A DNA stretch of 64,000 bases from Wenzhouxiangella sp. XN24 (GTDB lineage Bacteria; Pseudomonadota; Gammaproteobacteria; Steroidobacterales; XN24), in NCBI RefSeq assembly GCF_011064545.1, contig NZ_JAAMFG010000036.1, forward strand, positions 1 to 64,000, in the 5' to 3' direction. The position numbers were made by a program, and so were the translations under genes. Each line of letters opens with the position of its first letter. Position 1 is the first letter of the stretch. Below are positions 16,606-32,929 of the stretch, in pieces. Under the pieces are notes generated by a model. The model did not search any database, was not told the origin of the DNA, and worked only from the letters and a program-made list of their open reading frames with translations.

Positions 16606-17526
16606 CTACAAAAAGGCGAAGCGAAAGCCCGCCATGAAAAAGAGCTGTGCGGAATCTTCCCCATTGGCCTCCGCGATGCGGTCAGTGTCTCCAACGAGAA
16701 ACTGGGAGCGAACGCCGAAATAGGCAGCAAACTCGCGCTTGATCTCGTAACGCAGGCGGACGTCGAGCTTGACGTCGGTCATGCCTGCGCCAAGGCTGCG
16801 TTCGGGAATATCCTGAAAGGCAAATCCCATTTCAGTTCGCGGCTGAAGCACGAGGCGCTGGGTGATGCGGAGGTCGTACTCGGCTTCGATCGCCAAAGTG
16901 ACGTCACCGTCCTCGGAGATGTAGAGCGAGTTATCAAGCTCGAACATGTAGGGAGCCAGGCCCTGCAGCGCGATCACGCCGGACCACCGGTCCTCGTAGT
17001 CGCCACTGTGCCACTCGTTGGCGTATTGCACGCCCGCCTGGAAGTTCCAGAACGGCGTGACCAGGCGAGAATAGAGCAGATCGGTTTCCGTTTCTCCCTC
17101 GTCCGGACCCTCGAAAACCGCCTCGCCCTCGTTCTTCCACCAGAACTTGTTGAAGTCGCCGCCGATCCACCCCTGCGCCTCCCACCCGAGCTGGTCGGCC
17201 GCCTCGTCTGTCGCGACCCTGTATTCCAGCTGCTCGAAGAGGGTGAAGACATAGATCCTGTCATCGGGCACCGGTTCGGGGAAGTCGGCGGGCGGCGGTG
17301 ACTCGGCGAAGTCGAACACCTCATCCAGGGTCATGCCTGGTGGGATTGCCGGTTCGTTCTCCGGTGCGCGGGGCGCCGACTCATCGTGCTGCGCGGCCGA
17401 TTCGCCATGCATCGGGCGATCCGCCGTGCTCGGTATGGCGTCGTCCTGGGCCCATGCCGGGGCGGCGAATGCCGGCAGCATGGCGAGCACGATCATGTTC
17501 CAGGGGCTGAGTTTAGGACGTGACAT
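16606..17526 (-). CDS. copB: Copper resistance protein B (outer membrane)
   Basis: The 306-residue protein has a signal peptide (LAMLPAFAAPAWAQ) and a short His/Met-containing linker (MHGESAAQHDE). The CopB barrel domain follows: YVFTLFEQLEYR, GWEAQGWIGGDFNKFWWKNEGE, LLYSRLVTPFWNFQAGVQY and RYEIKREFAAYFGV. The length fits the family. It overlaps the 3' end of copA by 14 nt, so translation is probably coupled. CopB exports or binds copper at the outer membrane in periplasmic copper tolerance. No cop regulator (CopRS, CueR) is next to it. Confidence 0.95.
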   Translation of the reverse strand: MSRPKLSPWNMIVLAMLPAFAAPAWAQDDAIPSTADRPMHGESAAQHDESAPRAPENEPAIPPGMTLDEVFDFAESPPPADFPEPVPDDRIYVFTLFEQLEYRVATDEAADQLGWEAQGWIGGDFNKFWWKNEGEAVFEGPDEGETETDLLYSRLVTPFWNFQAGVQYANEWHSGDYEDRWSGVIALQGLAPYMFELDNSLYISEDGDVTLAIEAEYDLRITQRLVLQPRTEMGFAFQDIPERSLGAGMTDVKLDVRLRYEIKREFAAYFGVRSQFLVGDTDRIAEANGEDSAQLFFMAGFRFAFL

Positions 17527-19360
17527 TGATCGGAGCTGCTTCCAGCGAGCGGACGACGGCCACGGTGCGGAACATGCCGGCCTCCATGTGATAGAGCAGG
17601 TGGCAATGGAACGCCCACTGTCCCGGGGCGTCGACGCTGATGTCCACGGTGAGCAACTCCGCCGGCTGGACGATCACCGTGTGCTTGCGTGGGTTGTCGC
17701 CATAGTTCTCGGCCCCCGCGTAGAGATCCATCCACATGCCGTGCAGGTGAATCGGGTGGCTCATCATGGTGTCGTTGATCATGTTGATCCGGACTCGCTC
17801 GCCGTACTGCAGGCGAATCATGTCCGACTGGGACCACTTCTTGCCGTCGAAGCCCCAAATGTACTTGTGCATATTGCCGGTCAGGTGCAGGTCGAACTGG
17901 CGCGTGGGCGGCCGCCGATCATAGGGTTCTTCCAGCGCCCGCAACTGGCTGTAGGTCAGCACACGCCAGCCGTCGTTTCCAAGTCCGGCGCCGGGATAGT
18001 CGAGCCGGCGATATGCCGTTTGAGCCATGGTGATGCTGGCCGGGCCGTGCTGGTCGGGGCCGTGCTCGATACGCTCGACGAGGTTGGTCGTCGGCAGTTC
18101 CGTTCCATGCCCGTGGCCGGGTGCGCGCTGCGGCATCTCGTGTCCCATGCCGGCATGGTTCTCGTCGTCCATGCCGTCCATGCCGTCCATGTCACCGTGC
18201 ATCATCATGCCCATGTCGGCCATGGTGAGCATGGGCCGGCGTCGCTGTTCGGGCACGGCCGCCGACATTCCCGGTCTCGGGGCCAGCGTGCCGCGTGCAT
18301 GACCGCTGCGGTCCATGGTCTCCGCGAACAGGGTGTATGCGCGTGCGTCCGGCAGCGTCACGATCACGTCATAGGTTTCGGCCACTCCGATCCGAAGCTC
18401 GTCGGTCTCTACCGGCTTGATGTTCTGGCCATCTGCCTGCACGACAGTCATTGGCAGGCCCGGGATGCGGATGTCGTAGAACGTCATCGTCGAGGCGTTG
18501 ACGATCCGCAGGCGCACGCGTTGGCCGGGCCTGGCGACGAAGGTAGGGTTCTCGTGGGCCGCCTTGCCGTTCATCAGGTACGTGTAGGTCGCGCCGGTAA
18601 TGTCGGCGATGTCGGTGGGGTCCATCCGCATCCGGTCCCACGCCAATCGTTTCTCCAGCACCTCGCTCAGCGACATACCTGTCGCTTTCATCTGGTCGTC
18701 GATATTCGCCAGCGTCGGACGCTGGAAGTTGTAGTAGCCCTCCATGGTCTTGAGCTTTTTCAGGACACGATGCGGATCCTCGAAAGTCCAGTCGGACAGA
18801 ACGATCGAATGCTCCACGTCGTAGCCCACCGGGTCCGGTTCGGCGGGCTCGACGATCAGCTGGCCGTAATGCCCGAGCTGTTCCTGCAGGCCGGTGTGGC
18901 TGTGATACCAGTAGGTGCCGTTCTGCCGGACGGGGTAGCGGTAGGTAAATGTTTCGCCGGCGGGAATGCCGGGGAAGCTGATGCCCGGGACACCGTCCAT
19001 GTTGAACGGCAGCAATATCCCGTGCCAGTGAATCGACGTAGATTCGCCCAGCCGGTTGTGGACGCGGATCAGCGCCTCTTTGCCTTCCTGCATCCGGATG
19101 ACCGGCCCGGGAATGGATCCGTTGATCGCGATCGCCCAGCCGGGTTTACCGCCGATCAGCAGGTCCTGGCGTTCGAGGTAAAGGTCGATGCCGGCAGGAT
19201 CGGTCGCGGTCAGTTCGCCAAACTCGCCGGCACGCCTGGTGGCTGGCTGGGCCGCCCAGAACGGACGTAAGGAGGGCAACAACATGCTGGTGGAAACCAG
19301 GCACGTCGTGCAGAGGAACTCCCTTCGCGACAAGGTCTTTGTTTGGGGGCGATCTTTCAT
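17513..19360 (-). CDS. copA: Copper resistance multicopper oxidase CopA
   Basis: The 615-residue protein has a Tat signal (SRREFL near residues 11-16) and three cupredoxin domains. All four copper motifs are visible: HWHG, WYHSHTG, HPIHLHG and HCHLLYHMEAGM, the last with a Met axial ligand. A Met/His-rich insertion around residues 375-420 (MGMMMHGDMDGMDGMDDENH) is typical of CopA/CueO-type proteins and binds Cu(I). The enzyme would oxidise Cu(I) in the periplasm. It is the first gene of a two-gene operon with copB. Confidence 0.96.
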   Translation of the reverse strand: MKDRPQTKTLSRREFLCTTCLVSTSMLLPSLRPFWAAQPATRRAGEFGELTATDPAGIDLYLERQDLLIGGKPGWAIAINGSIPGPVIRMQEGKEALIRVHNRLGESTSIHWHGILLPFNMDGVPGISFPGIPAGETFTYRYPVRQNGTYWYHSHTGLQEQLGHYGQLIVEPAEPDPVGYDVEHSIVLSDWTFEDPHRVLKKLKTMEGYYNFQRPTLANIDDQMKATGMSLSEVLEKRLAWDRMRMDPTDIADITGATYTYLMNGKAAHENPTFVARPGQRVRLRIVNASTMTFYDIRIPGLPMTVVQADGQNIKPVETDELRIGVAETYDVIVTLPDARAYTLFAETMDRSGHARGTLAPRPGMSAAVPEQRRRPMLTMADMGMMMHGDMDGMDGMDDENHAGMGHEMPQRAPGHGHGTELPTTNLVERIEHGPDQHGPASITMAQTAYRRLDYPGAGLGNDGWRVLTYSQLRALEEPYDRRPPTRQFDLHLTGNMHKYIWGFDGKKWSQSDMIRLQYGERVRINMINDTMMSHPIHLHGMWMDLYAGAENYGDNPRKHTVIVQPAELLTVDISVDAPGQWAFHCHLLYHMEAGMFRTVAVVRSLEAAPINVTS

Positions 19361-19786: not shown

Positions 19787-20971
19787 GTGAGACACCTGGT
19801 AGGCCTGCTTGCATTGCTCTGTCCTGTCGGCCTCGGCGCGGCTGACCTGGAAAGTATCGGCATCGTCGGCGACAGCGTCTCCACCGGCGCGCTCACGGGG
19901 AAGGGCTTTACGGCGACTTCAGGCGCCTTGGTAGGGCACACAGTCCGGGGACACCTCGAGATGGCGGCGCCGTTCGCCACCCCGGGCAACACGCCGGTTT
20001 ACGACGCATATGCCGATCCGGCGGCATTCAACATCCGCCGACCCATCTGGCCTCCCACGCGCTTGTGGATGAGCCACGGTGAACCGCCCGATGTCTCCCG
20101 TAGCACCGGCAGCGATCGCCTCCGGACCATGATCATCGACACGGAGCAGTACAGCTGGGGTTACCTGCTCGGACGCAAGCTCGGCGTGCTGCCCCGTCAT
20201 ATTTACCTGGCGGCGAGACATGGCAGCGGCGCCAGGAATCTCCAGTACCAGTTCGCGGCGCTGCAGATGCGCGCTCCTGCAATGCCTGCCGTGCTCCCCG
20301 GGCACCAGCCTGAGCTCGTGCTGGTGATGATGAACCTGTACGAGACGTGCGACTTTCCCGCCGGCCTCGAGCAGGATCCGCATTACCGTCGCGCGTTCCT
20401 GGACACGTATGCGCAGGAATTCCTTGGCGGATTCGTTACGGCGCTGGAACAAATCGCGCCTCATCCCAAGGGGACGGCGATCGTCGTCCTCTCACCGGTG
20501 AACCTGCTGCAAACCTCCAGGCGTGACGACCTGCTGGACCGCCGGGTACGATACGAGGATGCCGAGGTCACCTGCCGTGACATCCGGTCGGGGGAGCTGC
20601 GGCCCTTGCGATGGATGGGCCGCGATCTGTTCGACATGTCGAATATCTGCAGGGGTGTGCTGGGCATCCCGTGGCATGCCGGTGAGAGGCTCGACGCCAT
20701 CGAGTCGCTGGCCCGCGAAATGGCCGACATCCAGCGGCGCGTGACGCTGGAACTTGCCGCGCACCCGCCGGAAGGAACGAGGATCGCCTTCATCGAGGAG
20801 ACCGCGTCGATCCGCTTCGAGGCCGAGGATTTTGTAGACGACTGTTGGCACCCCTCCTTGCGGGGCGCGGAAAAAATAGCCCGCACAACTCATAAAGCGC
20901 TCGAAGAAAAAGGCATCATGAGCACGCTGACACCACCCGCCGCGCCGCCCGGGCGCGCATCCCGCCCATGA
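19787..20971 (+). CDS. SGNH/GDSL-like hydrolase
   Basis: The 394-residue product starts at a GTG and has a signal-like N-terminus (LVGLLALLCPVGLGAAD). The GDSVSTGAL block I follows, with the nucleophile Ser in GDS. Near the C-terminus lies DDCWHPS, the Asp-x-x-His block V of SGNH hydrolases. These enzymes are esterases or lipases, often acting on envelope lipids or polysaccharides. The 3' end overlaps the FkbM methyltransferase start by four bases (ATGA). It is therefore the first gene of a three-gene operon leading into the GTP-derived-metabolite cluster. Confidence 0.75.
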   Translation: MRHLVGLLALLCPVGLGAADLESIGIVGDSVSTGALTGKGFTATSGALVGHTVRGHLEMAAPFATPGNTPVYDAYADPAAFNIRRPIWPPTRLWMSHGEPPDVSRSTGSDRLRTMIIDTEQYSWGYLLGRKLGVLPRHIYLAARHGSGARNLQYQFAALQMRAPAMPAVLPGHQPELVLVMMNLYETCDFPAGLEQDPHYRRAFLDTYAQEFLGGFVTALEQIAPHPKGTAIVVLSPVNLLQTSRRDDLLDRRVRYEDAEVTCRDIRSGELRPLRWMGRDLFDMSNICRGVLGIPWHAGERLDAIESLAREMADIQRRVTLELAAHPPEGTRIAFIEETASIRFEAEDFVDDCWHPSLRGAEKIARTTHKALEEKGIMSTLTPPAAPPGRASRP

Positions 20972-21720
20972 CACTGCGCAGCATGATCGGCCTGGCGCGG
21001 TCGATGTGGACCTACCGCCGGCCCGGACGGCTGCACGGACTGCTGGCGCTGTATCGCCCGTTCGTACCGGACGGCGGCCTGGTGTTCGACATCGGAGCCC
21101 ACCTTGGCGATCGCACGCGAGCCTTTCGCCGCCTGGGCGCCCGGGTCGTCGCACTCGAGCCCCAGCCAGCATTGATGCGCTGGCTCGAGCGCTTTCACGG
21201 CGGCGACGCCGGCGTCGTCCTGGTCGATCGCGCAGCCGGCGCCGAACCGGGGCGGGCCCGGCTGGCCATCAGCGAAATGCACCCGGCGGTCGCCTCGCTT
21301 TCGACTCGCTGGCGCGCCGAAGTCAGCGATAGCCACGCCGGGTTCGCCGCAGTTCGCTGGCCGCACTCGATCGAGGTGACCGTGACGACCCTCGACGAAC
21401 TGGTCGATCGCCACGGCCTGCCGGATTTCTGCAAGATCGATGTCGAGGGCCACGAAAGCGAGGTGCTCGAGGGCCTGTCGCAGCCTTTGCCGGCGCTTTC
21501 GGTCGAGTTCGTCGCAGGCGCCCTGCACCGCGCGCGGGCCTGCATCGACCGCCTGTCGGCCCTGGGGGACTACCGATACAATGCAGTGGCCGGCGAGCAG
21601 CGGGAATACCTTTGGTCCGAGTGGGCGGAACCGGAAACGGTTCGCAGCTGGCTGGCCGCCGGCGCCGACGGGCTGAGATCGGGTGATCTCTATGCCGTTC
21701 ACCGCCCGAGGGGAAGCTGA
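20968..21720 (+). CDS. FkbM-type SAM-dependent methyltransferase
   Basis: The 250-residue protein has motif I GLVFDIGAHLGDRTRAF, an acidic end of strand 2 (VVALEPQPALM) and the FkbM feature FCKIDVEGHESEVLEGL. FkbM enzymes O-methylate sugars, macrolides and other small molecules. The start overlaps the SGNH gene by ATGA, and the creatininase gene begins 4 nt after its stop. All three are one transcription unit. Confidence 0.88.
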   Translation: MTLRSMIGLARSMWTYRRPGRLHGLLALYRPFVPDGGLVFDIGAHLGDRTRAFRRLGARVVALEPQPALMRWLERFHGGDAGVVLVDRAAGAEPGRARLAISEMHPAVASLSTRWRAEVSDSHAGFAAVRWPHSIEVTVTTLDELVDRHGLPDFCKIDVEGHESEVLEGLSQPLPALSVEFVAGALHRARACIDRLSALGDYRYNAVAGEQREYLWSEWAEPETVRSWLAAGADGLRSGDLYAVHRPRGS

Positions 21721-21724
21721 CACC

Positions 21725-22498
21725 ATGCGATATGACTGGGGCGATCTCACCAGCACCGATCTTGCCGCATTGGCCGCGAGAAAACCGGTCGCGGCGCTCG
21801 TGCTCGGCGCGATCGAGCAGCATGGGCCGCACCTGCCGCTGGCAACCGACCTCATCATCGGCGAGGGCCTGCTGAGCCTTGCCGGCGAACGACTGGAAGA
21901 GGATTTTCCGCTGCTGGTATTGCCCTCGCTCTCGCTCGGCGCAAGCGCTGAGCACGCCGGCTTTGCCGGCACCCTGGTTCTCTCCCCGGAACAGATGAAG
22001 CACCAGGTCGTGGCCATCGGCGACGGGCTCGCCCGCTCCGGCTTCGAGCGCCTCGTGCTCGTCAATGCGCACGGCGGGAATATCGGCTGGATGAATGACG
22101 CCGCGCTCGAATTGCGCCGCCGCCTGGGCCTGCTGGCAGTCAAGGCCAGCTACATGCAGTTCGAGCCGCCCGCCGAACTGCTATCCGCCGCCGAGCTGCG
22201 CGACGGCCTGCATGGCGGACTGGCCGAAACGGCCATGATGCTGCACATCGCACCCGAGCTGGTGCGCATGGAGCGTGCGCGGGACTTCCGGCCGAATTAC
22301 CCGCACGGAAGTCCGCTGGCGCCCCAGGGCGAAGCGGCCTGGGCCTGGCTGGCCGAAGACCTGCACGCCGCCGGCGTGGTCGGCGACGCCGCCTCGGCCG
22401 ACGCGGCACTGGGCGAACGCCTGCTCAGCCATTACGCCAACCGGCTGGCGCGAATCATCGAGGCCAGCCGGGACCTGGTGTGGCCCCCACCTGCATGA
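21725..22498 (+). CDS. Creatininase family amidohydrolase (ArfB-like)
   Basis: From the ATG at 21725 (GAGGGGAAG upstream) the product is 257 residues. The metal site is intact: AIEQHGPHLPLATD gives Glu, His and Asp ligands, NAHGGN is the next conserved block, and GLAETAMML provides the late Glu. The family includes creatininase, the mycofactocin peptidase MftE and ArfB. ArfB deformylates the formamidopyrimidine made from GTP in archaeal flavin/F420 synthesis. With a GTP cyclohydrolase II gene next door, an ArfB-like step is the most attractive reading, but this is an inference from context. Confidence 0.88.
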   Translation: MRYDWGDLTSTDLAALAARKPVAALVLGAIEQHGPHLPLATDLIIGEGLLSLAGERLEEDFPLLVLPSLSLGASAEHAGFAGTLVLSPEQMKHQVVAIGDGLARSGFERLVLVNAHGGNIGWMNDAALELRRRLGLLAVKASYMQFEPPAELLSAAELRDGLHGGLAETAMMLHIAPELVRMERARDFRPNYPHGSPLAPQGEAAWAWLAEDLHAAGVVGDAASADAALGERLLSHYANRLARIIEASRDLVWPPPA

Positions 22499-22536
22499 GC
22501 CAGGACCTGGACCAGGCCGACCGGCCGAGGCGCAAG

Positions 22537-23655
22537 TCACTGTTCGTCCAGCACGTCCCTCAACAGGTGGCCCGAGCGGCGGGCCTTGGCTTCGAGGTAG
22601 CACCGGTTCTGCCGCGTGACCCGGCCGTAAACGCTGCCCCGCGCGCTCACCTCGATTCCGCCCTCGGCAAGCGCGTGGATCTTGTTGGGATTGTTGGTCA
22701 GCAGCTTGACGCGTTTTATGGAAAGCGCGGCGAGGATATCAACCGCCGCGCGATAGCGCCGCTCGTCCTCGCCGAAGCCGAGAACCTGGTCGGCATCGAC
22801 GGTGTCCAGCCCGGCGTCCTGCAAATCGTAGGCTCGCAGCTTGTTGGCCAGGCCGATGCCGCGCCCTTCCTGCGCCAGGTACAGCAGCAAACCGCCGCCG
22901 AGCTTGAGTATGGTTCGCACCCCGTTCTGCAGCTGCTCGCCGCAATCGCAGCGCAGGCTCCCGAACAGGTCGCCGGTCAGGCAGGCCGAGTGCAGGCGCA
23001 CGGGCACTTCATCCGGCCAGTTTTCGGCATCACCGATCGCCACCGCGACATGCTCGCGCAGGCCGTCGGGTTCGCGAAACAGGATGAAGCGGGAGCGGAC
23101 CGACTCGACGAGCGGGATGTCAGCCTCGCTGACACGGCGGAGCATACCAGTGCCGGATTCGAAGCAGCGCTCGGCCGCGCGCGCCGACACGCGCAAGATC
23201 CTGCCGTCGGCGACCAAGGAATCAAGCGCGGTACGCCTGCTGGCGTCGATGCCCGCGGTGATCGCCGCGGGCACCAGCAAGGCACGCCGCATCAGCGCCA
23301 GCGCAGCGCGTTCGCTGGTGCCGGCCGGTCGCGGGTCGCCGAACAAGCGGGCCCCGATCCCGTCGCTGGCCACCGCGGCGAGGTAGAGCGCTTCGGCGCG
23401 CAGGCCGTCGGCCCGCCGCAACGGCAGGCAAGCCGCCTCGGCCTGGGTTGAAAAACCCATCGCTTCCATGCGGTGGCGGGTGACGGTCAGGGCCGGCGCG
23501 CCTCCGACCAGTTCGAGGGTCTCCCGCAATTCCGCATCCGCGATGGATTCGACCGGATAGACCAGCACGCCGGCATCAGAGGGTTCCCGGTCGTCGTGTA
23601 TGACGACCGCCAGTCCCCGGCGAAGATCGAAAATAGCGCGTTCTACCTGGTACAT
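22537..23655 (-). CDS. GTP cyclohydrolase II with degenerate RibB-like N-terminal domain
   Basis: Of 372 residues, about 175-365 are a complete GTP cyclohydrolase II. The zinc site is C...LRCDC in SACLTGDLFGSLRCDCGEQ. GGLLLYLAQEGRGIGL and LLTNNPNKI are also present. Residues 1 to about 165 resemble RibB (dihydroxybutanone-phosphate synthase) in layout, but the DDEDRENEGD active-site motif is replaced by IHDDREPSDAG. That half is probably inactive. The reaction is GTP to a 2,5-diaminopyrimidinone ribosyl phosphate plus formate and pyrophosphate. The gene is divergent from the RibD-type reductase and convergent with the creatininase gene. Confidence 0.9.
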   Translation of the reverse strand: MYQVERAIFDLRRGLAVVIHDDREPSDAGVLVYPVESIADAELRETLELVGGAPALTVTRHRMEAMGFSTQAEAACLPLRRADGLRAEALYLAAVASDGIGARLFGDPRPAGTSERAALALMRRALLVPAAITAGIDASRRTALDSLVADGRILRVSARAAERCFESGTGMLRRVSEADIPLVESVRSRFILFREPDGLREHVAVAIGDAENWPDEVPVRLHSACLTGDLFGSLRCDCGEQLQNGVRTILKLGGGLLLYLAQEGRGIGLANKLRAYDLQDAGLDTVDADQVLGFGEDERRYRAAVDILAALSIKRVKLLTNNPNKIHALAEGGIEVSARGSVYGRVTRQNRCYLEAKARRSGHLLRDVLDEQ

Positions 23656-23759
23656 GGTTTCTTTTCAGCTTATGCCATCATCATGGCACGCGATTGAGGC
23701 GTTCGCGACCTGCAGCTGGTCTGTGCGAATTGCCTGGCGGTACGCCCGGAGCGATGTGA

Positions 23760-24605
23760 ATGACCACGGACACTGAATCAATCTGGCGAGCTTTGCTCGA
23801 CGCGCGCAGCCTGGATTGGATCGATCGCAGCAGCTGGTGCCGATCCACCCCGGCCGGCAGAGTCACGTTGTTCGGCTCGGGTACCTGGCAGGCCGACTTC
23901 ACGCTCGATGAAGAGGCCCGCACGTTGCTTGACTCACTGGCTCCGTTGGCAACCGCGGCCCGGCTGGTCGTGGGCCAGCTCGGCCAGAGTCTCGACGGAC
24001 GCATCGCCACCGAAAGCGGGCACTCCCACTACATCAACGGCCCGGTCGCTCTCAAGCACCTCCACCGCCTGCGCGCACTCGTCGACGCGGTAGTGATCGG
24101 CGCCAACACCGCCTGCGCCGATTGTCCGCAGCTGACCGTTCGCCGCGTGACCGGGCCCAACCCGGTACGGGTCGTCATCGACCCGCGTGCGCGCGTGCCG
24201 GCCCGGGGCCCGCTGTTCGATGCTGACGGGGACCCGCCCCCTGTTCTCCATGTCATTGGTCCAGAGGCGTCGCCCGAGCCGGCGCCCGGGCATGTCGAGC
24301 GCCTCAGGCTGGCTACAGGCGAACGCGGTTTTTCGCCCGCTGCCGTGCTTGCCGCGCTAAAGGAGCGCGGCCTGCATCGGATCCTGGTCGAAGGCGGGGC
24401 CGAGACGATCTCGCGCTTCATCCACGCCGAGGCGCTCGACCGGCTGCACCTGCTTATCGCGCCGCTGATCATCGGCTCGGGCCGCAACGGGCTGGACCTG
24501 CCCGTGATCGAACGGCTCGATGAGGCACGCCGGCCCCGCATGCGAAGCTTTTCGCTCGACGGCGAACTGCTGGTCGACGTGGATCTGCGCTTGTCCCAGG
24601 GCTGA
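23760..24605 (+). CDS. RibD C-terminal-type reductase
   Basis: The 281-residue protein has the dihydrofolate-reductase-like fold of RibD_C: RLVVGQLGQSLDGRIATESG, HLHRLRALVDAVVIGANTACADCPQLTVR, RILVEGGAETISRFI and LHLLIAPLIIGSG. There is no deaminase domain (no CHAE/PCxxxxC zinc motif). An unrelated N-terminal stretch of about 65 residues precedes the reductase. In riboflavin synthesis this domain reduces the ribosyl side chain to ribityl with NADPH. The product pathway here is unknown. A 104-nt divergent promoter region separates it from the GTP cyclohydrolase gene. Confidence 0.88.
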   Translation: MTTDTESIWRALLDARSLDWIDRSSWCRSTPAGRVTLFGSGTWQADFTLDEEARTLLDSLAPLATAARLVVGQLGQSLDGRIATESGHSHYINGPVALKHLHRLRALVDAVVIGANTACADCPQLTVRRVTGPNPVRVVIDPRARVPARGPLFDADGDPPPVLHVIGPEASPEPAPGHVERLRLATGERGFSPAAVLAALKERGLHRILVEGGAETISRFIHAEALDRLHLLIAPLIIGSGRNGLDLPVIERLDEARRPRMRSFSLDGELLVDVDLRLSQG

Positions 24606-24646
24606 ATGGACGACGCCTTCCAGGCTGCGCCTGGTAATGCCTGCAG

Positions 24647-25504
24647 TCACTTCGCTTGCGGCAGGGCCAGGATATCGACGTGCCCGACGACCAGGCCGAC
24701 ACGTCCACGCTCCAGGTCGGCGCGGCGGGCTCGGTACCAGGCCTCGATCCACGCTGCATCATGCGGCGATTGCGCGACGGCAGCCTGCATCCAGTCCTGC
24801 AGCAGCGCCGCGCCGAGCGCGGGCGTATGCGCCTGGCCGGCGTCGAGCCGCCAATCGGCCCTGGCCATCCAGGTCCTCAGGCCCGCCTTTTCAAGCAGTG
24901 CCGGCAACACGTCGGCGGCCTCCGGCCCGAGGGCTTCGCCCATGCCCTTGCGCCGTTGCTGGTGCCGGTTGAACAGTGCCTCCAGGCGCGCATCACGTTC
25001 GTCTTCCAGACGCCGGCCGCGTTCGTCGACGAACCCGCGCCGGCCATCCACGGTCAGGGCGAACAGCGCGGCCGCCCCGCAACCAGCGATCCGCCCGGCC
25101 AACGCTTCGATCCAGTCCTTCGAGACCAGGTCGAAAATCGCCGCGGCGGTGACCAGGCCGGCATTGTCGAACAACTCGCGCGGCAATCCGCCCAGGTCCA
25201 TGCAGCGGGTGCTGATCCGCACGGCCCGTCCACCGGCGTCTGCGACAACCGGAGCCTGCCGTGCCATCGCCAGCAGCGCGTCGTCATGGTCGATCAGCAA
25301 CCAGTCCTGCTCGACGTCAAGCCGCGGTGCGAGCCAGCGCAGGTTGCTGCCGGTGCCCGCGCCCAGGTCGATCACCCGCAGCCTGTCCCTGTCCCGGAGC
25401 CACTCGGCAAGCTGGTCGGCGAAGCGCGCCACTCGCGCGGCATGATCGGCCGGTTCGCGCAGCGCGAGCCAATCCCCGGCAAAACGAGCCGCCTCGTGCG
25501 CCAT
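24647..25504 (-). CDS. Class I SAM-dependent methyltransferase
   Basis: The 285-residue protein has motif I RVIDLGAGTGSNLRWLAPRL and an acidic LLIDHDDALL after strand 2. A late TVDGRRGFVDERGR segment follows. It is the last gene of a four-gene minus-strand operon. Its ATG overlaps the stop of the glycosyltransferase gene (ATGA at 25504). The substrate is unknown, and the context suggests methylation of the GTP-derived or glycosylated product. Confidence 0.85.
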   Translation of the reverse strand: MAHEAARFAGDWLALREPADHAARVARFADQLAEWLRDRDRLRVIDLGAGTGSNLRWLAPRLDVEQDWLLIDHDDALLAMARQAPVVADAGGRAVRISTRCMDLGGLPRELFDNAGLVTAAAIFDLVSKDWIEALAGRIAGCGAAALFALTVDGRRGFVDERGRRLEDERDARLEALFNRHQQRRKGMGEALGPEAADVLPALLEKAGLRTWMARADWRLDAGQAHTPALGAALLQDWMQAAVAQSPHDAAWIEAWYRARRADLERGRVGLVVGHVDILALPQAK

Positions 25505-26580
25505 CAGCCTGCGCCGCCCTCCAGCGCGGCGGCGAAGGCGCGCCCCGCCTCCGGCCAGCTGCGCAAGGTTGCGCGCCGCTCGGCGGCACTGCGCGTCAGG
25601 CGTCGGCGCAGGGCGGCATCATCCAGCCACCGGGCCAGGGCTTGGGCCAGCGCGCCGATGTTGCCGGGTTCGACCCGGAGGCAACAGTCTTCCGGCGCGG
25701 TCTGCGCCAGGGCCCCACCGGTGGTCGTGATCATCGGCAGCCCCCGCGCCAGCGCTTCGCTGACCACCATGCCGTAGCCCTCGTAATGCGACGGCAGCAG
25801 GCACACGCCGGCGCGGCGATACTCGGCATCGAGCGTGGCCTGGTCGCACTCGCCGATGCAATCGATCCGGTCCGCCAGGCCGGCTTCCCGAACCAGGCCA
25901 GCGACACGTTCGGCAAAGGCAGGGTCACGCGCGCTCGAACCGAGCAGGGTGCAGTGCCAGTCACGGTCAGCCAGTTGCGCCAGGGCCCGGACAAGCAGGT
26001 CCTGGCCCTTCCGCGGCGTCAGGCTGGCGACGCAGAGCAATCGCTCCGGCCCCTCCGGCTCGCGGCCTTGCAGGCGCGCCGCGACCGCTGCGGCCAGTTC
26101 TGCGCCGTTCACGCCCGGCTCGACGACGCGCGGCGTTCTTTGCTCGAAACCCAGCTCCCGCAGCCGGCGGGCCGTGAAAGGGCTGGTGACGATGACCCTG
26201 CGGCAGGCGGCAAGCGCGCGCGTTTCGCGCAAGAGCAATCGTTCGCGTACCGCCGCATCGAGGCCGGTTTCGTCGGCCAGGGGATGATGCACCAACGCGT
26301 TGATGTCCAGGCGCCCGGCATGCGCAGCGACTTCATCAGGCAGCCCGCCCAGTGCGAGCCCGTCGATGACCAAGCGCGCACCGTCGGGCAATCTCCCCAG
26401 CGCGTGATGCATCGCCGTGGCAGCGCGATCGTCGGTGTCGGGGAAGCGCCCCTCGAGCCCGATCACGTCGACCGTCCAGCCCAGCTCTCGAAGCTCGCGC
26501 GCCATGTGCGCGTCATACAGGTACCCGCCGGTGCGCTGTCCCGGCTCGCCGGGAATGATCATGTACAGGTGCCGGCTCAC
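25504..26580 (-). CDS. Family 4 glycosyltransferase
   Basis: The 358-residue GT-B fold protein has an N-terminal Gly-rich donor/acceptor loop (GEPGQRTGGYLYDAHM). In the C-terminal half are RLLCVASLTPRKGQDLLVRAL and the E-x7-E nucleotide-sugar motif region (LLPSHYEGYGMVVSEALARGLP). These are hallmarks of GT4 (group 1) retaining transferases. It starts with a GTG overlapping the stop of the PTPS-like gene (GTGA). Its presence inside the operon implies that the product is glycosylated. Confidence 0.9.
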   Translation of the reverse strand: MSRHLYMIIPGEPGQRTGGYLYDAHMARELRELGWTVDVIGLEGRFPDTDDRAATAMHHALGRLPDGARLVIDGLALGGLPDEVAAHAGRLDINALVHHPLADETGLDAAVRERLLLRETRALAACRRVIVTSPFTARRLRELGFEQRTPRVVEPGVNGAELAAAVAARLQGREPEGPERLLCVASLTPRKGQDLLVRALAQLADRDWHCTLLGSSARDPAFAERVAGLVREAGLADRIDCIGECDQATLDAEYRRAGVCLLPSHYEGYGMVVSEALARGLPMITTTGGALAQTAPEDCCLRVEPGNIGALAQALARWLDDAALRRRLTRSAAERRATLRSWPEAGRAFAAALEGGAG

Positions 26581-26975
26581 ACCGCTCCTTCGAAGCTGGC
26601 CGAGGCCTGGTGCGATTCCTTGAGCTTGACCTTCAGGCGCGTCAGCCCGCCGGCCGCGGGGCCGAGTCGCCCGTCCGAAATGGCGCGGACCAGGCGGTCG
26701 AAGATCGCCCGGGCCATGAACTCGGTGGTCGTGTTCCGCCCCGAGAACTCGTCGAGATCATCGAGATTGCGGTAGTTGAATTCGGCCAGGATCTCGCCGA
26801 GCACCTTTCCGGCCAGGCCGATATCGACCACCAGTCCGTCGTCGTCGAGTTCGGGACGCATGAAACTCGCATCAACGACGTAGGTGGCCCCGTGCAGGCG
26901 CTGTGCCGGCCCGAATATCTCGCCGGAGAAACTGTGGGCGATCATGAAGTGATCGCGAACGGTCAATGTGTACAT
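26577..26975 (-). CDS. PTPS/QueD-fold protein with altered active site
   Basis: The start at 26975 (GGACAGC before the ATG) gives 132 residues, normal for the 6-pyruvoyl-tetrahydropterin synthase/QueD family. Family features are RDHFMIAHSF, LHGATYVVDASF, GLVVDIGLAGKVL, LDEFSGRNTTTEFMARAIF and KLKESHQASASF. In typical members three His residues bind zinc, two of them in an HGH motif, and a catalytic Cys lies just before it. Here HGH has become HGA, and no Cys occurs in the preceding GPAQR. A new chemistry or a binding role is likely. It sits between the dehydrogenase and glycosyltransferase genes. Confidence 0.85.
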   Translation of the reverse strand: MYTLTVRDHFMIAHSFSGEIFGPAQRLHGATYVVDASFMRPELDDDGLVVDIGLAGKVLGEILAEFNYRNLDDLDEFSGRNTTTEFMARAIFDRLVRAISDGRLGPAAGGLTRLKVKLKESHQASASFEGAV

Positions 26976-26991
26976 GCTGTCCTTCCTCGAA

Positions 26992-27972
26992 CTATGGGCT
27001 GCCGTACTCGACACGATGGCACAACACGTCATTCGCTGCCGCCAGCACTTCGGGCATGTCTTCGGCCAGGGTCGCGAACCGGCTCGTGCCCGAGACCAGG
27101 TGATCGAGAGCCGGATCGGTCAATAAGCGCAGCGCCAGTTCCAGTCGTCGCCGGTGCGTCCAGCGCGGCTGCCGAGCGGGCGGAAGCTGTCCGACCTGGC
27201 TGGCGATCAGCGACAGCCGGCGCGAGTGGAAGGCTTCACCCAGCGGAACCGCCGGACGATTTGTGCCGTACCAACTCATCTCGACCACGCGCGCCTGGTT
27301 CCCGGCCAGGGCCAGCGCGGTGGCCAGCCCGGCCTCGCTGGCGCTCGCGTGCACGACCACGTCGCAAGCTCCTTCAGCGTCCTGCGGCAGGGCGAAATCC
27401 ACCCCCAGTCGCGAGGCGAGCCGCGCGCGATCGGACCGCACATCGACCAGCGTCACCTGCGTGCCGGGAATGCGCCCGGCCAGCCACGCAGTCAGCGCGC
27501 CGATGACGCCGGCGCCGATGACCGCCACACGATCACCGGGACCGATTCCGGCGTCCCAGGCAGCGTTGACCGCGGTTTCCATGTTGGCCGCCAGCACGGC
27601 GCGCCCGGCCGGTACGCCTTCGGGCAGCCCGACGACCGATGCGGCGGGCACGATGAACCGATCCTGGTGCGGATGCAGGCTGAAAACCTGGCGTCCCTGC
27701 AACGCTTCCGGCCCGTCCTCGACGACACCCACCGCGCTGTAGCCATACTTGACCGGGCCGGGGAACTCGCCCTGCTGGAAGGGCGCGCGCATGCGCTCGT
27801 ATTCCGATGGCGGCACTTGTCCATTGAACACCAGCGCCTCGGTGCCGCGGCTGATGCCGGAGAAAAGCGTGCGCACGAGCACCTGGTCGCCGGCCACATC
27901 CGGCAACGACTCGCCACGAATCTCGCCGCTGCCGGGAGCGACGATCCAGAAAGCTCGGGCAGTTCCGCTCAT
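26992..27972 (-). CDS. Zinc-type medium-chain dehydrogenase/reductase
   Basis: The 326-residue MDR protein has GISRGTEALVF where alcohol dehydrogenases have the catalytic Cys region. GYSAVGVV follows, then the Rossmann motif VAVIGAGVIGALTAWLAG with VTLVDVRSDRA. The classical zinc ligands are not evident, so a non-zinc oxidoreductase is possible. It is the first gene of the operon MDR, PTPS-like, GT4, methyltransferase. The gap to the PTPS-like start is 16 nt. The divergent CDP-alcohol transferase gene begins 119 nt upstream. Confidence 0.87.
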   Translation of the reverse strand: MSGTARAFWIVAPGSGEIRGESLPDVAGDQVLVRTLFSGISRGTEALVFNGQVPPSEYERMRAPFQQGEFPGPVKYGYSAVGVVEDGPEALQGRQVFSLHPHQDRFIVPAASVVGLPEGVPAGRAVLAANMETAVNAAWDAGIGPGDRVAVIGAGVIGALTAWLAGRIPGTQVTLVDVRSDRARLASRLGVDFALPQDAEGACDVVVHASASEAGLATALALAGNQARVVEMSWYGTNRPAVPLGEAFHSRRLSLIASQVGQLPPARQPRWTHRRRLELALRLLTDPALDHLVSGTSRFATLAEDMPEVLAAANDVLCHRVEYGSP

Positions 27973-28091
27973 CAGCGTGTCTCACTCCAAAAATGCCGCA
28001 CATCATCACGATAACTTAGTAGCGCTGATGTTGATGTGCCCGATCGAGCCATTATGCGATCATCAGGCTTCAGAAAAACGAGCAGTTTCCG

Positions 28092-28817
28092 ATGACAAGC
28101 CGCTTGATCAAGGCGGAACTGGCTGTGGGTGCGCTGGCCACGGGCGGGCTCGCGATGTTGGTTTCGGCCTCGCCAGGCCCGAGCTGGCAACCCCCGGCCG
28201 CGGCCGTTTTCGTTTACGGCATCGTTGCTTCGATCCTGGTCATGGCACTGGCAGGCAAGCACGGCCTCGGCTGGGCCAACCGGGTCACCCTGCTGCGCGC
28301 CGCGATCACCTGCGCCCTCGCCGGCGCTCTCGTTCAACCCAGCCTGTTCGATGAGCGAGCGGGATTGATAGTCAGCCTGGCGCTGGTCTCGCTGGTGCTG
28401 GACGGCGTCGATGGCTGGCTGGCACGGCGCAACGGCGAGTCCAGCGCATTCGGGGCGCGTTTCGACATGGAGACCGACGGCGCGCTCATCCTCGTGTTGT
28501 GTGCCGGCCTATGGCTTTCCGGCCTCGCCCCGGCCTGGGTACTGGCCATCGGCCTGATGCGCCCGGCCTTTCTCGCCGGCGCCCTGATCTGGCCCTGGCT
28601 GTCGAAACCCCTTCCCGACAGCTTCCGCCGCAAACTGGTCTGCGTGGTCCAGGTTGCCGTATTGCTGATCGCTCTTGTGCCATTCGTGACGGCATTAATG
28701 CGCGTGGCCCTGCTGGCCGTCGCGCTGCTCGCCCTGTCAATTTCCTTCGCCACAGACATAGCCTGGCTGCTCAGGACTCGCCAGGCCTCGAAACATACGG
28801 AGCGGACCATTCCATGA
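28092..28817 (+). CDS. CDP-alcohol phosphatidyltransferase
   Basis: The 241-residue membrane protein has about six hydrophobic segments. The complete family motif D-x2-D-G-x2-A-R-x8-G-x3-D-x3-D is present (DGVDGWLARR, then G and two D in FGARFDMETD). The enzyme moves a phosphoalcohol from a CDP-activated donor to an acceptor alcohol. It starts the plus-strand pair with YceI (ATGA overlap at 28814) and is divergent from the dehydrogenase operon. In this setting it may attach a lipid or polyol to the cluster product; ordinary phospholipid synthesis is the alternative. Confidence 0.92.
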   Translation: MTSRLIKAELAVGALATGGLAMLVSASPGPSWQPPAAAVFVYGIVASILVMALAGKHGLGWANRVTLLRAAITCALAGALVQPSLFDERAGLIVSLALVSLVLDGVDGWLARRNGESSAFGARFDMETDGALILVLCAGLWLSGLAPAWVLAIGLMRPAFLAGALIWPWLSKPLPDSFRRKLVCVVQVAVLLIALVPFVTALMRVALLAVALLALSISFATDIAWLLRTRQASKHTERTIP

Positions 28818-29407
28818 ATACGACACCTGCCATTCGCGGCCTGCTGGCCGCGCTTATCGTCGGCGTCTCGAACGCATCGTTCGCCGAGCCGGCAAACTTC
28901 GAAATCGACAAGGAGCACTTCTCCATTGCCTTCTTGGTCGAGCACGTGGGTTACGCCAATACGATCGGCCAGTTCCTCGAGGCCGAGGGCCGCTTCGTCT
29001 ACGACGAATCAGCCAATCAACTGAGCGCAGGCGAGGTGATCATCGCGGCCGACAGCGTGTTCACGAATCACCGGCGCCGGGACAAGCACCTGAGAAGCGA
29101 CGACTTCCTCGACGCCGACCGTCACGAGGCGATCCGCTTCGAGGCAACCCAATGGCGTCCCGCAGGCAAGCGAAAAGGCACGCTCGCAGGAGATCTCACC
29201 CTGCTCGGCCAAACGCGTGCAGTAGAACTGGGCGTAACCATCAACAAGTCCGCCAAATACCCCTTTGGCCACGGACGGCACACGCTCGGCATCTCGGCCC
29301 GCACGACCATCAAGCGCAGCGAGTGGGGCATGACCTACGGCGTCGAAGACGGCCTGGTCGGCGACGAAGTCGAACTGATTCTCGAGTTCGAGGCGATTCG
29401 GCAGTAA
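28814..29407 (+). CDS. Periplasmic YceI family protein
   Basis: The 197-residue protein has a signal peptide (LLAALIVGVSNASFAEP) and the YceI lipocalin-like barrel. Visible features are FEIDKEHFSIAFLVEHVGY, HLRSDDFLDADRHEAIRFEA, GDLTLLGQTRAVELGVTI and RTTIKRSEWGM. Characterised members bind isoprenoid or amphiphilic ligands in a deep pocket. Translational coupling to the CDP-alcohol transferase suggests that it carries a lipid-linked intermediate or product in the periplasm. Confidence 0.92.
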   Translation: MNTTPAIRGLLAALIVGVSNASFAEPANFEIDKEHFSIAFLVEHVGYANTIGQFLEAEGRFVYDESANQLSAGEVIIAADSVFTNHRRRDKHLRSDDFLDADRHEAIRFEATQWRPAGKRKGTLAGDLTLLGQTRAVELGVTINKSAKYPFGHGRHTLGISARTTIKRSEWGMTYGVEDGLVGDEVELILEFEAIRQ

Positions 29408-31021: not shown

Positions 31022-32929
31022 ATGGCGCTCAAGCTTTCCCCGCAGGACGCGCCCGCCTTTTGCGCCTTCATTTCCTACAGCCACGCCGACGAGCGTCACG
31101 CCGCCTGGCTGCAGAAAGCACTGGAACGCTGGAAAGTCCCCCGGCGCCTGGTCGGCAGCGAGGGGCGTTTCGGGCCCATCCCGGAGCGCCTGGGAAAGGT
31201 CTTCCTCGACCGGGACGAATTGCCCTCCGCATCCAGCCTGACTGACGAGATCCAGGCGGCCCTCGCGGCCTCCGAGACGCTGGTCGTCATTTGTTCCCCC
31301 GCCGCCGCCCGGTCCCGCTGGGTGAACGAGGAGATCCGCAGCTTCAAGGCCCTGGGCAAGGCACAGCGTGTCCTGGCCATGATCGTCGACGGCGAGCCCT
31401 GGGCCTCCGACCAGCCGGACCGGGCCGACGAGGAATGTTTTCCGAAGGCCCTCCGTTACACGGTCGATGCCGCTGGCGAGCTGACCCTGGAACGCACCGA
31501 GCTGATCGCGGCGGACCTGCGCCCGGGCAAGGACGGCAAGCAGGCGGCGTTGCTCAAGATCGTCGCCGGCATCCTGGGCGTGGGCTTCGACGCGCTGCGC
31601 CAGCGCGAAGCCCAGCGCCGGCAGCGCCGGCTCGCGGCCGTGGCGGCGGCCGCCGTCGTGGGCATGGGCATCACGTCGTTGCTCGCGGCCAGCGCCTGGT
31701 TCGCGCGCATCGAGGCGGACGTGCAACGCGCCAAGGCGGAGGCCAACTTCGACCTTGCCCGCGACGCCGTCGACCGCTACCTGACCCGGGTCGCAGAAAA
31801 TCCGGAGCTCAAGACCAGCGGCCTGACGACCCTCCGGCGGCAACTGCTGGAGACCGCCCGCGAGTTCTACCAGGACTTCGCGTCCCGCCAGGACGGCGAG
31901 GAGATCACGGCGGAACTCGCGCATGCGCACCACCGCCTCGCGAACATCAGCCGCATCATGGGTGATCTCGACGTGGCCGAAGCGGAGGTCCGCCTCGCGA
32001 TCGACAACACCGAGCAGTTGCTCGCCAGGGAGCCGCAAGACGAGCTGCATGCTTTCAACCTGGCGAACATGACCAGCGAGCTCGGGCTGGTACTGGCGGA
32101 CCGTGGCAAACCGGAGGCTGGCGCAGCTTACGCGGAAGCCCTCGAGCGCATGGAGGCGCTCGACCTGCGGCGCAGCGACAACCTCTTCCGCCGCTCCGCC
32201 CTCGCCAGCCTGCTCGACAACTACGGCCAGTGGATCGAAAGCCAAGGCCGGCCGGCGGAGGCCGAAACCCGGTTGCTGGAGGCGCTGCGACTGCGCCAGG
32301 GGCTGGTGCTGGCGGATCCGGACAACCTGGCATACCAGGGCCTGGTGATTTACAGCGCCATCAATCTCTCGGCGCTGTATGGTCGTACGGGACAACTGGA
32401 GGCCGGGCGGGACACGGCCCGGCTCGGCGTGGACCAGGGCGAGGCCCTGCTGCCCCGCCAACCCGACAACCCAGAGACGCGCATCAGCCTCAGCGCCGCC
32501 TACGAGAACCTGGGCGGCATCGAAATGCTGCTGGAGAACTACGACGCATCCGCTGCGGCCTACGACCGGTCGCGAGAACTCAAGGCGGCGCTGGTCATGG
32601 ACCATCCCGCGGTGCTCGACTACCGCCTGAAGCTGGCCGGCACCTACACGAACCTCGGCGAGCTCGCCAGCCGCCAGGCGAATCATCAAGACGCGCTGCC
32701 CTGGTATGACCAGTCCACCGAACTGCTCCGGTGGATCCTCGGCCGCTCCCCGGACATGGCCCTGGCCCGCTTTTACCTAAGCTACACCTGCGGCTGGCAG
32801 GGGCGCGCCCTCGATGCGCTCGCGCGCCGCACCGAGGCCGTCGACGCGTGGCAATGCGCCGTCGAGAACGACCCCACCGGGGACGCATCGCTGGTCGAGT
32901 CGCTGGAGGCGGCGCGCGCGCGGTTGTGA
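31022..32929 (+). CDS. TIR-TPR membrane protein (paralogue 2)
   Basis: The 635-residue protein has an N-terminal TIR domain (AFISYSHADERHAAWLQKAL, then FLDRDELPSASSL, SRWVNEEI with WxxxE present, FPKALRYTV). A membrane helix follows at about 205-230 (LAAVAAAAVVGMGITSLLAAS). A long tetratricopeptide region runs to the end. Unlike paralogues 1, 3 and 4 it lacks the TolB-like domain. The TIR would be cytoplasmic and the TPR part extracytoplasmic if the helix inserts once. It could be an NAD-cleaving effector or a signalling scaffold. It is convergent with an amidohydrolase gene. Confidence 0.88.
   Translation: MALKLSPQDAPAFCAFISYSHADERHAAWLQKALERWKVPRRLVGSEGRFGPIPERLGKVFLDRDELPSASSLTDEIQAALAASETLVVICSPAAARSRWVNEEIRSFKALGKAQRVLAMIVDGEPWASDQPDRADEECFPKALRYTVDAAGELTLERTELIAADLRPGKDGKQAALLKIVAGILGVGFDALRQREAQRRQRRLAAVAAAAVVGMGITSLLAASAWFARIEADVQRAKAEANFDLARDAVDRYLTRVAENPELKTSGLTTLRRQLLETAREFYQDFASRQDGEEITAELAHAHHRLANISRIMGDLDVAEAEVRLAIDNTEQLLAREPQDELHAFNLANMTSELGLVLADRGKPEAGAAYAEALERMEALDLRRSDNLFRRSALASLLDNYGQWIESQGRPAEAETRLLEALRLRQGLVLADPDNLAYQGLVIYSAINLSALYGRTGQLEAGRDTARLGVDQGEALLPRQPDNPETRISLSAAYENLGGIEMLLENYDASAAAYDRSRELKAALVMDHPAVLDYRLKLAGTYTNLGELASRQANHQDALPWYDQSTELLRWILGRSPDMALARFYLSYTCGWQGRALDALARRTEAVDAWQCAVENDPTGDASLVESLEAARARL

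Follow-up and report, generated by a model that had tools for sequence, protein, structure and literature searches.

A conserved gene cluster in Wenzhouxiangella sp. XN24 and bacteria of four phyla is a candidate pathway from GTP to a decorated cell-envelope compound

The genes examined here lie at positions 19787-29407 of the window, i.e. the whole stretch of 64,000 nucleotides that was analyzed (positions 1 to 64,000, forward strand, of contig NZ_JAAMFG010000036.1, assembly GCF_011064545.1, from the gammaproteobacterium Wenzhouxiangella sp. XN24). An earlier note, made from the sequence alone, had proposed that they encode an undescribed pathway for a GTP-derived, glycosylated or lipid-linked metabolite. 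They are arranged in blocks of alternating orientation, on the plus strand at 19787-22498, 23760-24605 and 28092-29407 and on the minus strand at 22537-23655 and 24647-27972; inside the operons, adjacent genes overlap by 1-4 bases or are separated by gaps of 4-16 bases, a layout that the note had described correctly. The gene families that it had named are supported by Pfam, NCBIfam or structural matches in all cases except the first gene.

The plus-strand operon ends with a gene for a creatininase-family amidohydrolase (21725..22498; PF02633, E 3e-65), the sole PF02633 match in the host genome, and is followed by genes for a GTP cyclohydrolase II (22537..23655, minus strand; Pfam, 4e-52) and a RibD_C reductase (23760..24605, plus strand; PF01872, 1e-35). 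The minus-strand operon at 24647-27972 encodes a class I S-adenosylmethionine (SAM) methyltransferase (24647..25504), a GT4 glycosyltransferase (25504..26580; PF00534, 3e-28), a T-fold protein (26577..26975; PTPS profile, 1e-22), the gene for which likely starts at 26975 and not at 27032, and an MDR dehydrogenase resembling BchC (26992..27972). For the methyltransferase, the PF13649 match (2e-5) falls below the cut-off (25.6 bits versus 27), and the assignment comes from an AlphaFold model (pLDDT 91.6) for which Foldseek retrieved generic class I methyltransferases, without a hint of the substrate. Similarly, the Pfam (1e-4) and NCBIfam bchC (2e-10) matches of the MDR protein are both below the cut-offs; its relatives are annotated as zinc-binding alcohol dehydrogenases, and a sequence search of the PDB yields generic alcohol dehydrogenases. 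The last plus-strand operon starts with a gene for a CDP-alcohol phosphotransferase (28092..28817; PF01066, 1.6e-14, 55 bits versus a cut-off of 22), for which phmmer detected no solved relative in the PDB at E 0.01.

Using an alignment of the MDR proteins for a tblastn search of named genomes (E<=1e-3), we retrieved at least 584 stretches and analyzed the best 80 (L016-L095), a top-scoring set and not a random sample, which by the phylum labels that we assigned from the record titles comprises 53 loci from Pseudomonadota, 23 from Actinomycetota, 3 from Gemmatimonadota and 1 from Acidobacteriota. Within 10 kb of the MDR gene, as counted with profiles grown from the same loci and thresholds that we set, these loci encode the T-fold protein (73/80), GT4 (71), the methyltransferase (71), the CDP-alcohol phosphotransferase (63), RibD_C (54), an LPG/MprF-type flippase (49), the cyclohydrolase (39), the creatininase-family protein (37), an FkbM methyltransferase (25), a sulfatase-fold protein (18), YceI (13) and cytochrome b561 (6). 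The MDR, T-fold, GT4 and methyltransferase genes occur together in 68 of the 80 loci, and all eight, including those for RibD_C, the cyclohydrolase, the creatininase-family protein and the CDP-alcohol phosphotransferase, are joined in 16 (11 from Gammaproteobacteria and 5 from Actinomycetes). Thus, the co-occurrence in other genomes that the earlier note had proposed as a check is strong, and the neighborhood is conserved in four phyla beyond chance. In a second sample, 398 evenly drawn genomes of the same phylum, an MDR ortholog was found in 27 genomes, the host included (E<=1.8e-98; the next match is at 1.2e-44); in the other 26, inspected with a flank of 1.5 kb, the T-fold gene is close to the MDR gene in every case and GT4 in 24. 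The protein distances are congruent between the cluster genes, with pairwise r of 0.68-0.95 against 0.09-0.39 for the largest of 200 permutations per pair, shared descent being uncontrolled in this comparison.

The cluster is not invariant. Ten of the 80 loci, several of them at contig ends, lack the T-fold protein or GT4 at the threshold used, and MDR loci with no T-fold gene nearby include L022, L024, L044 and L073. In the last three, which are proteobacterial, a cluster-type RibD_C is encoded beyond the stretch retrieved (E 3.5e-86, 5.2e-81 and 1.5e-55, respectively; the frame is broken in L073), which shows that a cluster can be divided. Conversely, GT4 and the methyltransferase are fused in 5 loci (L027, L039, L042, L082 and L083), and in the Gemmatimonadota locus L050 the creatininase-family protein and RibD_C share one open frame (L050:14110-16173, minus strand), an apparent gene fusion that independently ties the formyl and reduction steps discussed below together.

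Among the relatives of the host, the MDR ortholog was found in 2 of 29 genomes, counting the host, and it did not turn up in any of the 6 other members of the host's family; the second relative that has it (G422) also encodes the creatininase-family protein, cyclohydrolase, RibD_C, methyltransferase, GT4, T-fold protein and CDP-alcohol phosphotransferase. The MDR gene is further present on 16 plasmid records, and these two observations together indicate a mobile trait. A tblastn search of plasmid records with RibD_C leads to plasmids of Rhizobium, Agrobacterium, Methylosinus, a Rhodobacteraceae bacterium, Thiodictyon and Microbacterium (6 of the 70 records examined), on which RibD_C, methyltransferase, T-fold and MDR genes are grouped, together with GT4 except on the Rhodobacteraceae plasmid. 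Phage records yielded no hit with the MDR protein at E 1e-20. The copy of the cluster in the window looks acquired, judging by this distribution of homologs.

The T-fold protein, described in the earlier note as a PTPS/QueD-fold protein, is by sequence comparison a member of the SCO6650 family (PDB 3D7J) and neither PTPS nor QueD: the search of the PDB gave 3d7j with E 8e-59, and the next match is at 5e-7. SCO6650 reportedly lacks zinc and the catalytic triad and has no PTPS activity. In all 104 copies that entered the alignment (score >150; the weaker L008 and L042 excluded), the nucleophilic cysteine is replaced by alanine and HGH by HGA, the first histidine and HG being retained; the glutamate aligned with that of QueD is present in 103 copies, with a gap in one. 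In QueD-like proteins, this glutamate anchors the pterin-type ring. The PTPS-I, PTPS-II and PTPS-III subfamilies are distinguished in PMC5041015 by the motifs CxxxHGH, CxxxxxHGH and ExxHGH, while PTPS-V is described there as unclear. The three motifs are absent from the family, which has AQxxHGAT in 103 copies and ARxxHGAT in one. Thus, the T-fold is shared with QueD and the subfamilies of COG0720, whereas the catalytic cysteine and HGH are missing and, because the cysteine and one zinc ligand are lost, the PTPS/QueD chemistry implied by the note is unlikely. The loss of the motif also contradicts the annotation of the gene as 6-carboxytetrahydropterin synthase in all 7 annotated plasmid loci that were examined.

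The window cyclohydrolase retains the zinc motif CX10CXC and the QEGR motif. Its N-terminal part matches no Pfam family; nevertheless, an hhalign comparison of 21 cluster sequences with 20 RibB domains yielded a probability of 90% (E 1.6e-6) versus at most 0.2% for three column shuffles, and the model of the protein (pLDDT 76.5) retrieves RibBA, RibBX and DHBP synthases in Foldseek. The DHBP-synthase motifs D[ED]DREN or HTE[AG] are found in none of the 21 extended cluster copies, the window protein included, and in 20/20 RibB domains of RibBX. By these alignments and the model, the protein is a RibBA whose DHBP-synthase half has decayed, and hence it would supply no C4 unit for lumazine; the pathway seems to draw solely on the GTP half of RibBA.

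In a survey of 43 cluster copies of the cyclohydrolase (score >150), the position of Escherichia coli Tyr105 is occupied by methionine in 14 and by histidine in 3, all 17 from Actinomycetes. The window enzyme has tyrosine here and so lacks the methionine, which we take to be the replacement found in SCO6655, the Streptomyces coelicolor homolog that is said to stop at the N-formyl intermediate. A creatininase-family gene is present in the loci of all 17 Met/His copies and of 12 of the 25 Tyr copies, the window's included; the 13 Tyr copies scored as lacking it are an upper bound, given that the stretches L116, L087 and L085 are short or truncated. The association gives Fisher p 3.6e-4 (with L042, which has a split frame, excluded), a value that overstates the link because all 17 Met/His cases are Actinomycetes, a single lineage. 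BrbF, an enzyme of the creatininase family, is a proven formamidase for the N-formyl intermediate (PMC9478397), and by homology we propose a BrbF-type formamidase role for the cluster protein. The pairing of a Met/His cyclohydrolase with such an enzyme would make biochemical sense, but it is seen in one lineage only.

In the window reductase, Pfam detects the RibD_C domain alone and no deaminase domain. The best PDB matches are 6p8c, a 2,5-diamino-6-ribosylamino-pyrimidinone 5'-phosphate reductase, and the related 2azn, whereas proteins named DHFR match at E 7e-6 or weaker only. The protein is thus closest to reductases that act before deamination.

The host riboflavin and queuosine genes lie elsewhere in the genome: ribD-ribE-ribBX-ribH is on another contig and queC-queD-queE in a separate locus (mostly read from translations; the RibD_C, T-fold and RibB/RibA domains were confirmed), so the cell possesses these genes even though the window does not. 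The earlier note had argued that its idea would fall if the ribA-like and ribD-like genes were the only copies in the genome and complemented riboflavin auxotrophy. On the number of copies the outcome is mixed: RibD_C is not the sole RibD, as the rib operon contains a full one, but the cyclohydrolase is the only PF00925 protein with zinc cysteines in the host assembly (completeness 98.7%). RibBX, a protein type described in PMC10012899, retains the RibB motifs and has lost the zinc ligands in the host, and so is the mirror image of the cluster cyclohydrolase. Two relatives of the same genus show neither the cluster nor a zinc-type cyclohydrolase II. Among 29 relatives searched, a RibBX-type protein without zinc cysteines is encoded in all 28 PF00925-positive genomes (L126:3167-4312, L132-L158) and is the only PF00925 match in 23 of these, and a creatininase-family gene was found in 5. 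A separate observation concerns a 368-aa host protein (L127:3189-4295; C30:91188-92294), in which three T-fold/QueD-like domains are arranged in tandem between queC-like and queE-like genes; by eye, CxxxHGH is present in the middle domain alone.

Several genes at the locus fall outside the conserved set. The first gene of the plus-strand operon (19787..20971) encodes a putative secreted protein with a GDS motif seen by eye only, which the earlier note had included in the pathway as an SGNH hydrolase. It has no Pfam or NCBIfam matches, and phmmer (E 1e-8) detected no relative in the loci retrieved (0/80); the gene is therefore private to the window. Two other proteins of the locus, FkbM (20968..21720, plus strand; TIGR01444, 3.5e-24) and YceI (28814..29407, plus strand, start near 28814; PF04264, 1.5e-37), turn out to be accessories and not core members, the 13 loci with YceI being all from Pseudomonadota. 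Genes for CopB and a multicopper oxidase (16606-19360) immediately precede the cluster and are read from the opposite strand, and a TIR domain protein with TPR repeats is encoded at 31022-32929. Nothing pointed to a role in defence: PADLOC, run on 10 of the 11 proteins (without the creatininase-family protein), produced a single weak hit, which concerned the SAM portion of the methyltransferase.

Taken together, these observations suggest, at what we judge to be about an even chance, that the cluster encodes a dedicated pathway, spread by horizontal transfer, in which GTP is withdrawn from riboflavin synthesis and turned into a decorated compound of the cell envelope. GTP cyclohydrolase II would open GTP to 2,5-diamino-6-ribosylamino-4(3H)-pyrimidinone 5'-phosphate or halt at its N-formyl form, to be deformylated by the creatininase-family enzyme. 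Where present, the deaminase-less RibD_C would reduce the ribosyl to a ribityl chain before deamination, so that the 2-amino-4-oxo (pterin-type) ring would be kept. The 2-amino group belongs to the pattern bound by T-fold proteins. The T-fold protein, with its glutamate kept and the nucleophile and full zinc site lost, and the MDR dehydrogenase may close or remodel the ring into a pterin-like core, to be methylated and glycosylated by the methyltransferase and GT4. Finally, the CDP-alcohol phosphotransferase would attach the core (or the sugar or polyol on it) to a phospholipid, and the product would be turned outward by the MprF-like flippase, which is encoded in 49 clusters and not in that of the window; in the 16 Gram-negative loci with OpgH relatives, transfer to a periplasmic glucan is suggested. 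Homology and residue patterns argue for the first step and the closest solved homologs for the reduction, whereas we infer the subsequent steps from the predicted functions of the proteins. The lipid idea of the earlier note fits the recurring CDP-alcohol phosphotransferase and flippase, and the note's view that these genes form a set beginning with the opening of the GTP ring, distinct from the riboflavin, queuosine and F420 pathways, is likewise borne out by their conservation. The product is probably sugar-decorated and membrane-linked, and neither vitamin B2 nor a tRNA base.

A number of points weigh against this scheme. No cyclohydrolase was detected within 10 kb at 41 of the 80 loci, some of them truncated; the Met/His pairing is confined to Actinomycetes, and 12 Tyr-type cyclohydrolases, the window's among them, are accompanied by a creatininase-family gene as well. 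A cluster-type RibD was not found in 9 of the 15 genomes searched (12 of the 26 loci without RibD_C within 10 kb, the controls L058 and L074, and L050, which entered as RibD_C-less and was later found to carry the fused form). All 9 are Actinomycetes, with a best match of 2.4e-27, and therefore the reduction is not universal or is performed by another reductase; an F420-dependent oxidoreductase encoded beside the Streptomyces cyclohydrolase was considered as a substitute and dropped, being present in 4 loci only. As the sole zinc-type copy in the host, the cluster cyclohydrolase may also feed riboflavin. Finally, the window cluster has no flippase, the only PF03706 match in the host genome is remote (62 bits), and there is no OpgG match in that genome; hence these parts are missing or replaced in this host.

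The lack of a cluster-type RibD in the 9 actinomycete genomes would be explained by a pterin route, in which the T-fold protein rearranges and cyclises the diaminopyrimidine with its ribosyl chain intact to a dihydropterin, bypassing GTP cyclohydrolase I, and RibD_C, as a relative of DHFR, reduces the ring, the product being a glycosylated tetrahydropterin like cyanopterin or limipterin, although derived by way of cyclohydrolase II. The glutamate retained in the T-fold protein is consistent with this route, and pterins are substrates of glycosyltransferases in cyanobacteria and Chlorobium (PMC5683033). RibD_C, however, is nearest to ribosylaminopyrimidine reductases and RibD and matches DHFR-named proteins only weakly, as given above, and the pterin glycoside pathways described so far are not known to include a CDP-alcohol transferase. 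We regard this route as possible although rather doubtful.

An alternative fate of the phospholipid-linked group is decoration of osmoregulated periplasmic glucan, onto which the sulfatase/alkaline-phosphatase-fold protein (18 loci) would move a phospho-substituent from phospholipid. OpgH relatives are encoded in 16 loci from alpha-, beta- and gammaproteobacteria and Gemmatimonadota, including Methylosinus, Bradyrhizobium, Roseovarius, Thiocapsa, Halomonas and two Gemmatimonadota; all 7 that were tested by NCBIfam score above the cut-off of an MdoH model, and MdoH is also the annotation of the gene in Methylosinus. OpgG-type genes are found in 8 loci (2/2 tested match), and the flippase-like protein in 49 would also fit. 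Yet no OpgH relative turned up in the 23 actinomycete loci, the host has no OpgG match, and the sulfatase-fold protein has a sub-threshold Pfam match and no NCBIfam matches; glucan decoration is therefore at most a Gram-negative elaboration, and as a general explanation we consider it unlikely. The joining of OpgG- and OpgH-type genes to the cluster (L020, L025, L027, L034, L039, L042, L051 and L079) is an observation that the earlier note had not foreseen.

That the cluster serves mainly as an additional source of riboflavin, its cyclohydrolase and creatininase-family enzyme feeding riboflavin with help from RibD_C beside unrelated envelope genes, would agree with the zinc cysteines being confined to the cluster cyclohydrolase in the host, but is very unlikely given the RibB half without active-site motifs, the RibD_C without a deaminase, the 41 loci where no cyclohydrolase was detected while most other genes are kept, the two same-genus relatives with neither a zinc-type copy nor the cluster, and the linkage to GT4, methyltransferase and CDP-alcohol phosphotransferase across four phyla that it leaves unexplained.

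Compared with characterized systems, the cluster belongs to a known kind of pathway, GTP-derived pyrimidine/pterin biosynthesis, of which it is a variant with two proteins known from S. coelicolor. The window T-fold protein is of the same family as 3D7J, and the fetched Streptomyces clusters (the S. coelicolor locus itself not among them) carry the T-fold protein, the creatininase-family protein and a Met-type cyclohydrolase; in contrast to SCO6655, the cyclohydrolase of the window has retained the tyrosine and carries a RibB domain that has decayed, and the window also encodes RibD_C. SCO6655 is named GTP cyclohydrolase II in a table of PMC2853524. The riboflavin pathway of Sinorhizobium meliloti and Brucella similarly employs a creatininase-family enzyme, BrbF, after opening of the GTP ring, and the BrbF genes of several groups of Rhizobiales adjoin marR and cobW homologs (PMC9478397), whereas the cluster lacks a working RibB, RibE, RibH and a deaminase. 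The pterin glycosides of cyanobacteria and Chlorobium (cyanopterin and limipterin type) share with it, as far as we are aware, a PTPS-fold protein, a glycosyltransferase and the origin from GTP. The known pterin glycosides are built from GTP cyclohydrolase I, whereas the cluster has cyclohydrolase II, a T-fold protein without the PTPS active site, the CDP-alcohol phosphotransferase and a flippase. No description of the cluster or its product is among the literature matches listed, subscription papers being outside the search; the word "undescribed" in the earlier note holds only in part, since two proteins of the S. coelicolor version, SCO6650 (as PDB 3D7J) and SCO6655, have been studied before.

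More speculatively, and with doubts that outweigh our confidence, the preferred scheme of a pathway leading to the envelope could be extended to a widespread class of envelope molecules, in which a pterin-like, GTP-derived redox or light-absorbing headgroup is carried on a glycolipid (or on periplasmic glucan in OpgH hosts), reaches the outer side of the membrane by flipping and is assisted by proteins of the cytochrome b561 and YceI types. The MDR protein has relatives in at least 584 genome stretches, of which the best 80, from four phyla, share the same neighbors. The cluster makes testable the question of what two proteins of S. coelicolor are for, the PTPS homolog SCO6650, in which the catalytic residues of PTPS are lacking, and SCO6655, the cyclohydrolase, and the prediction is a new branch that would lead from a riboflavin precursor to the cell envelope.

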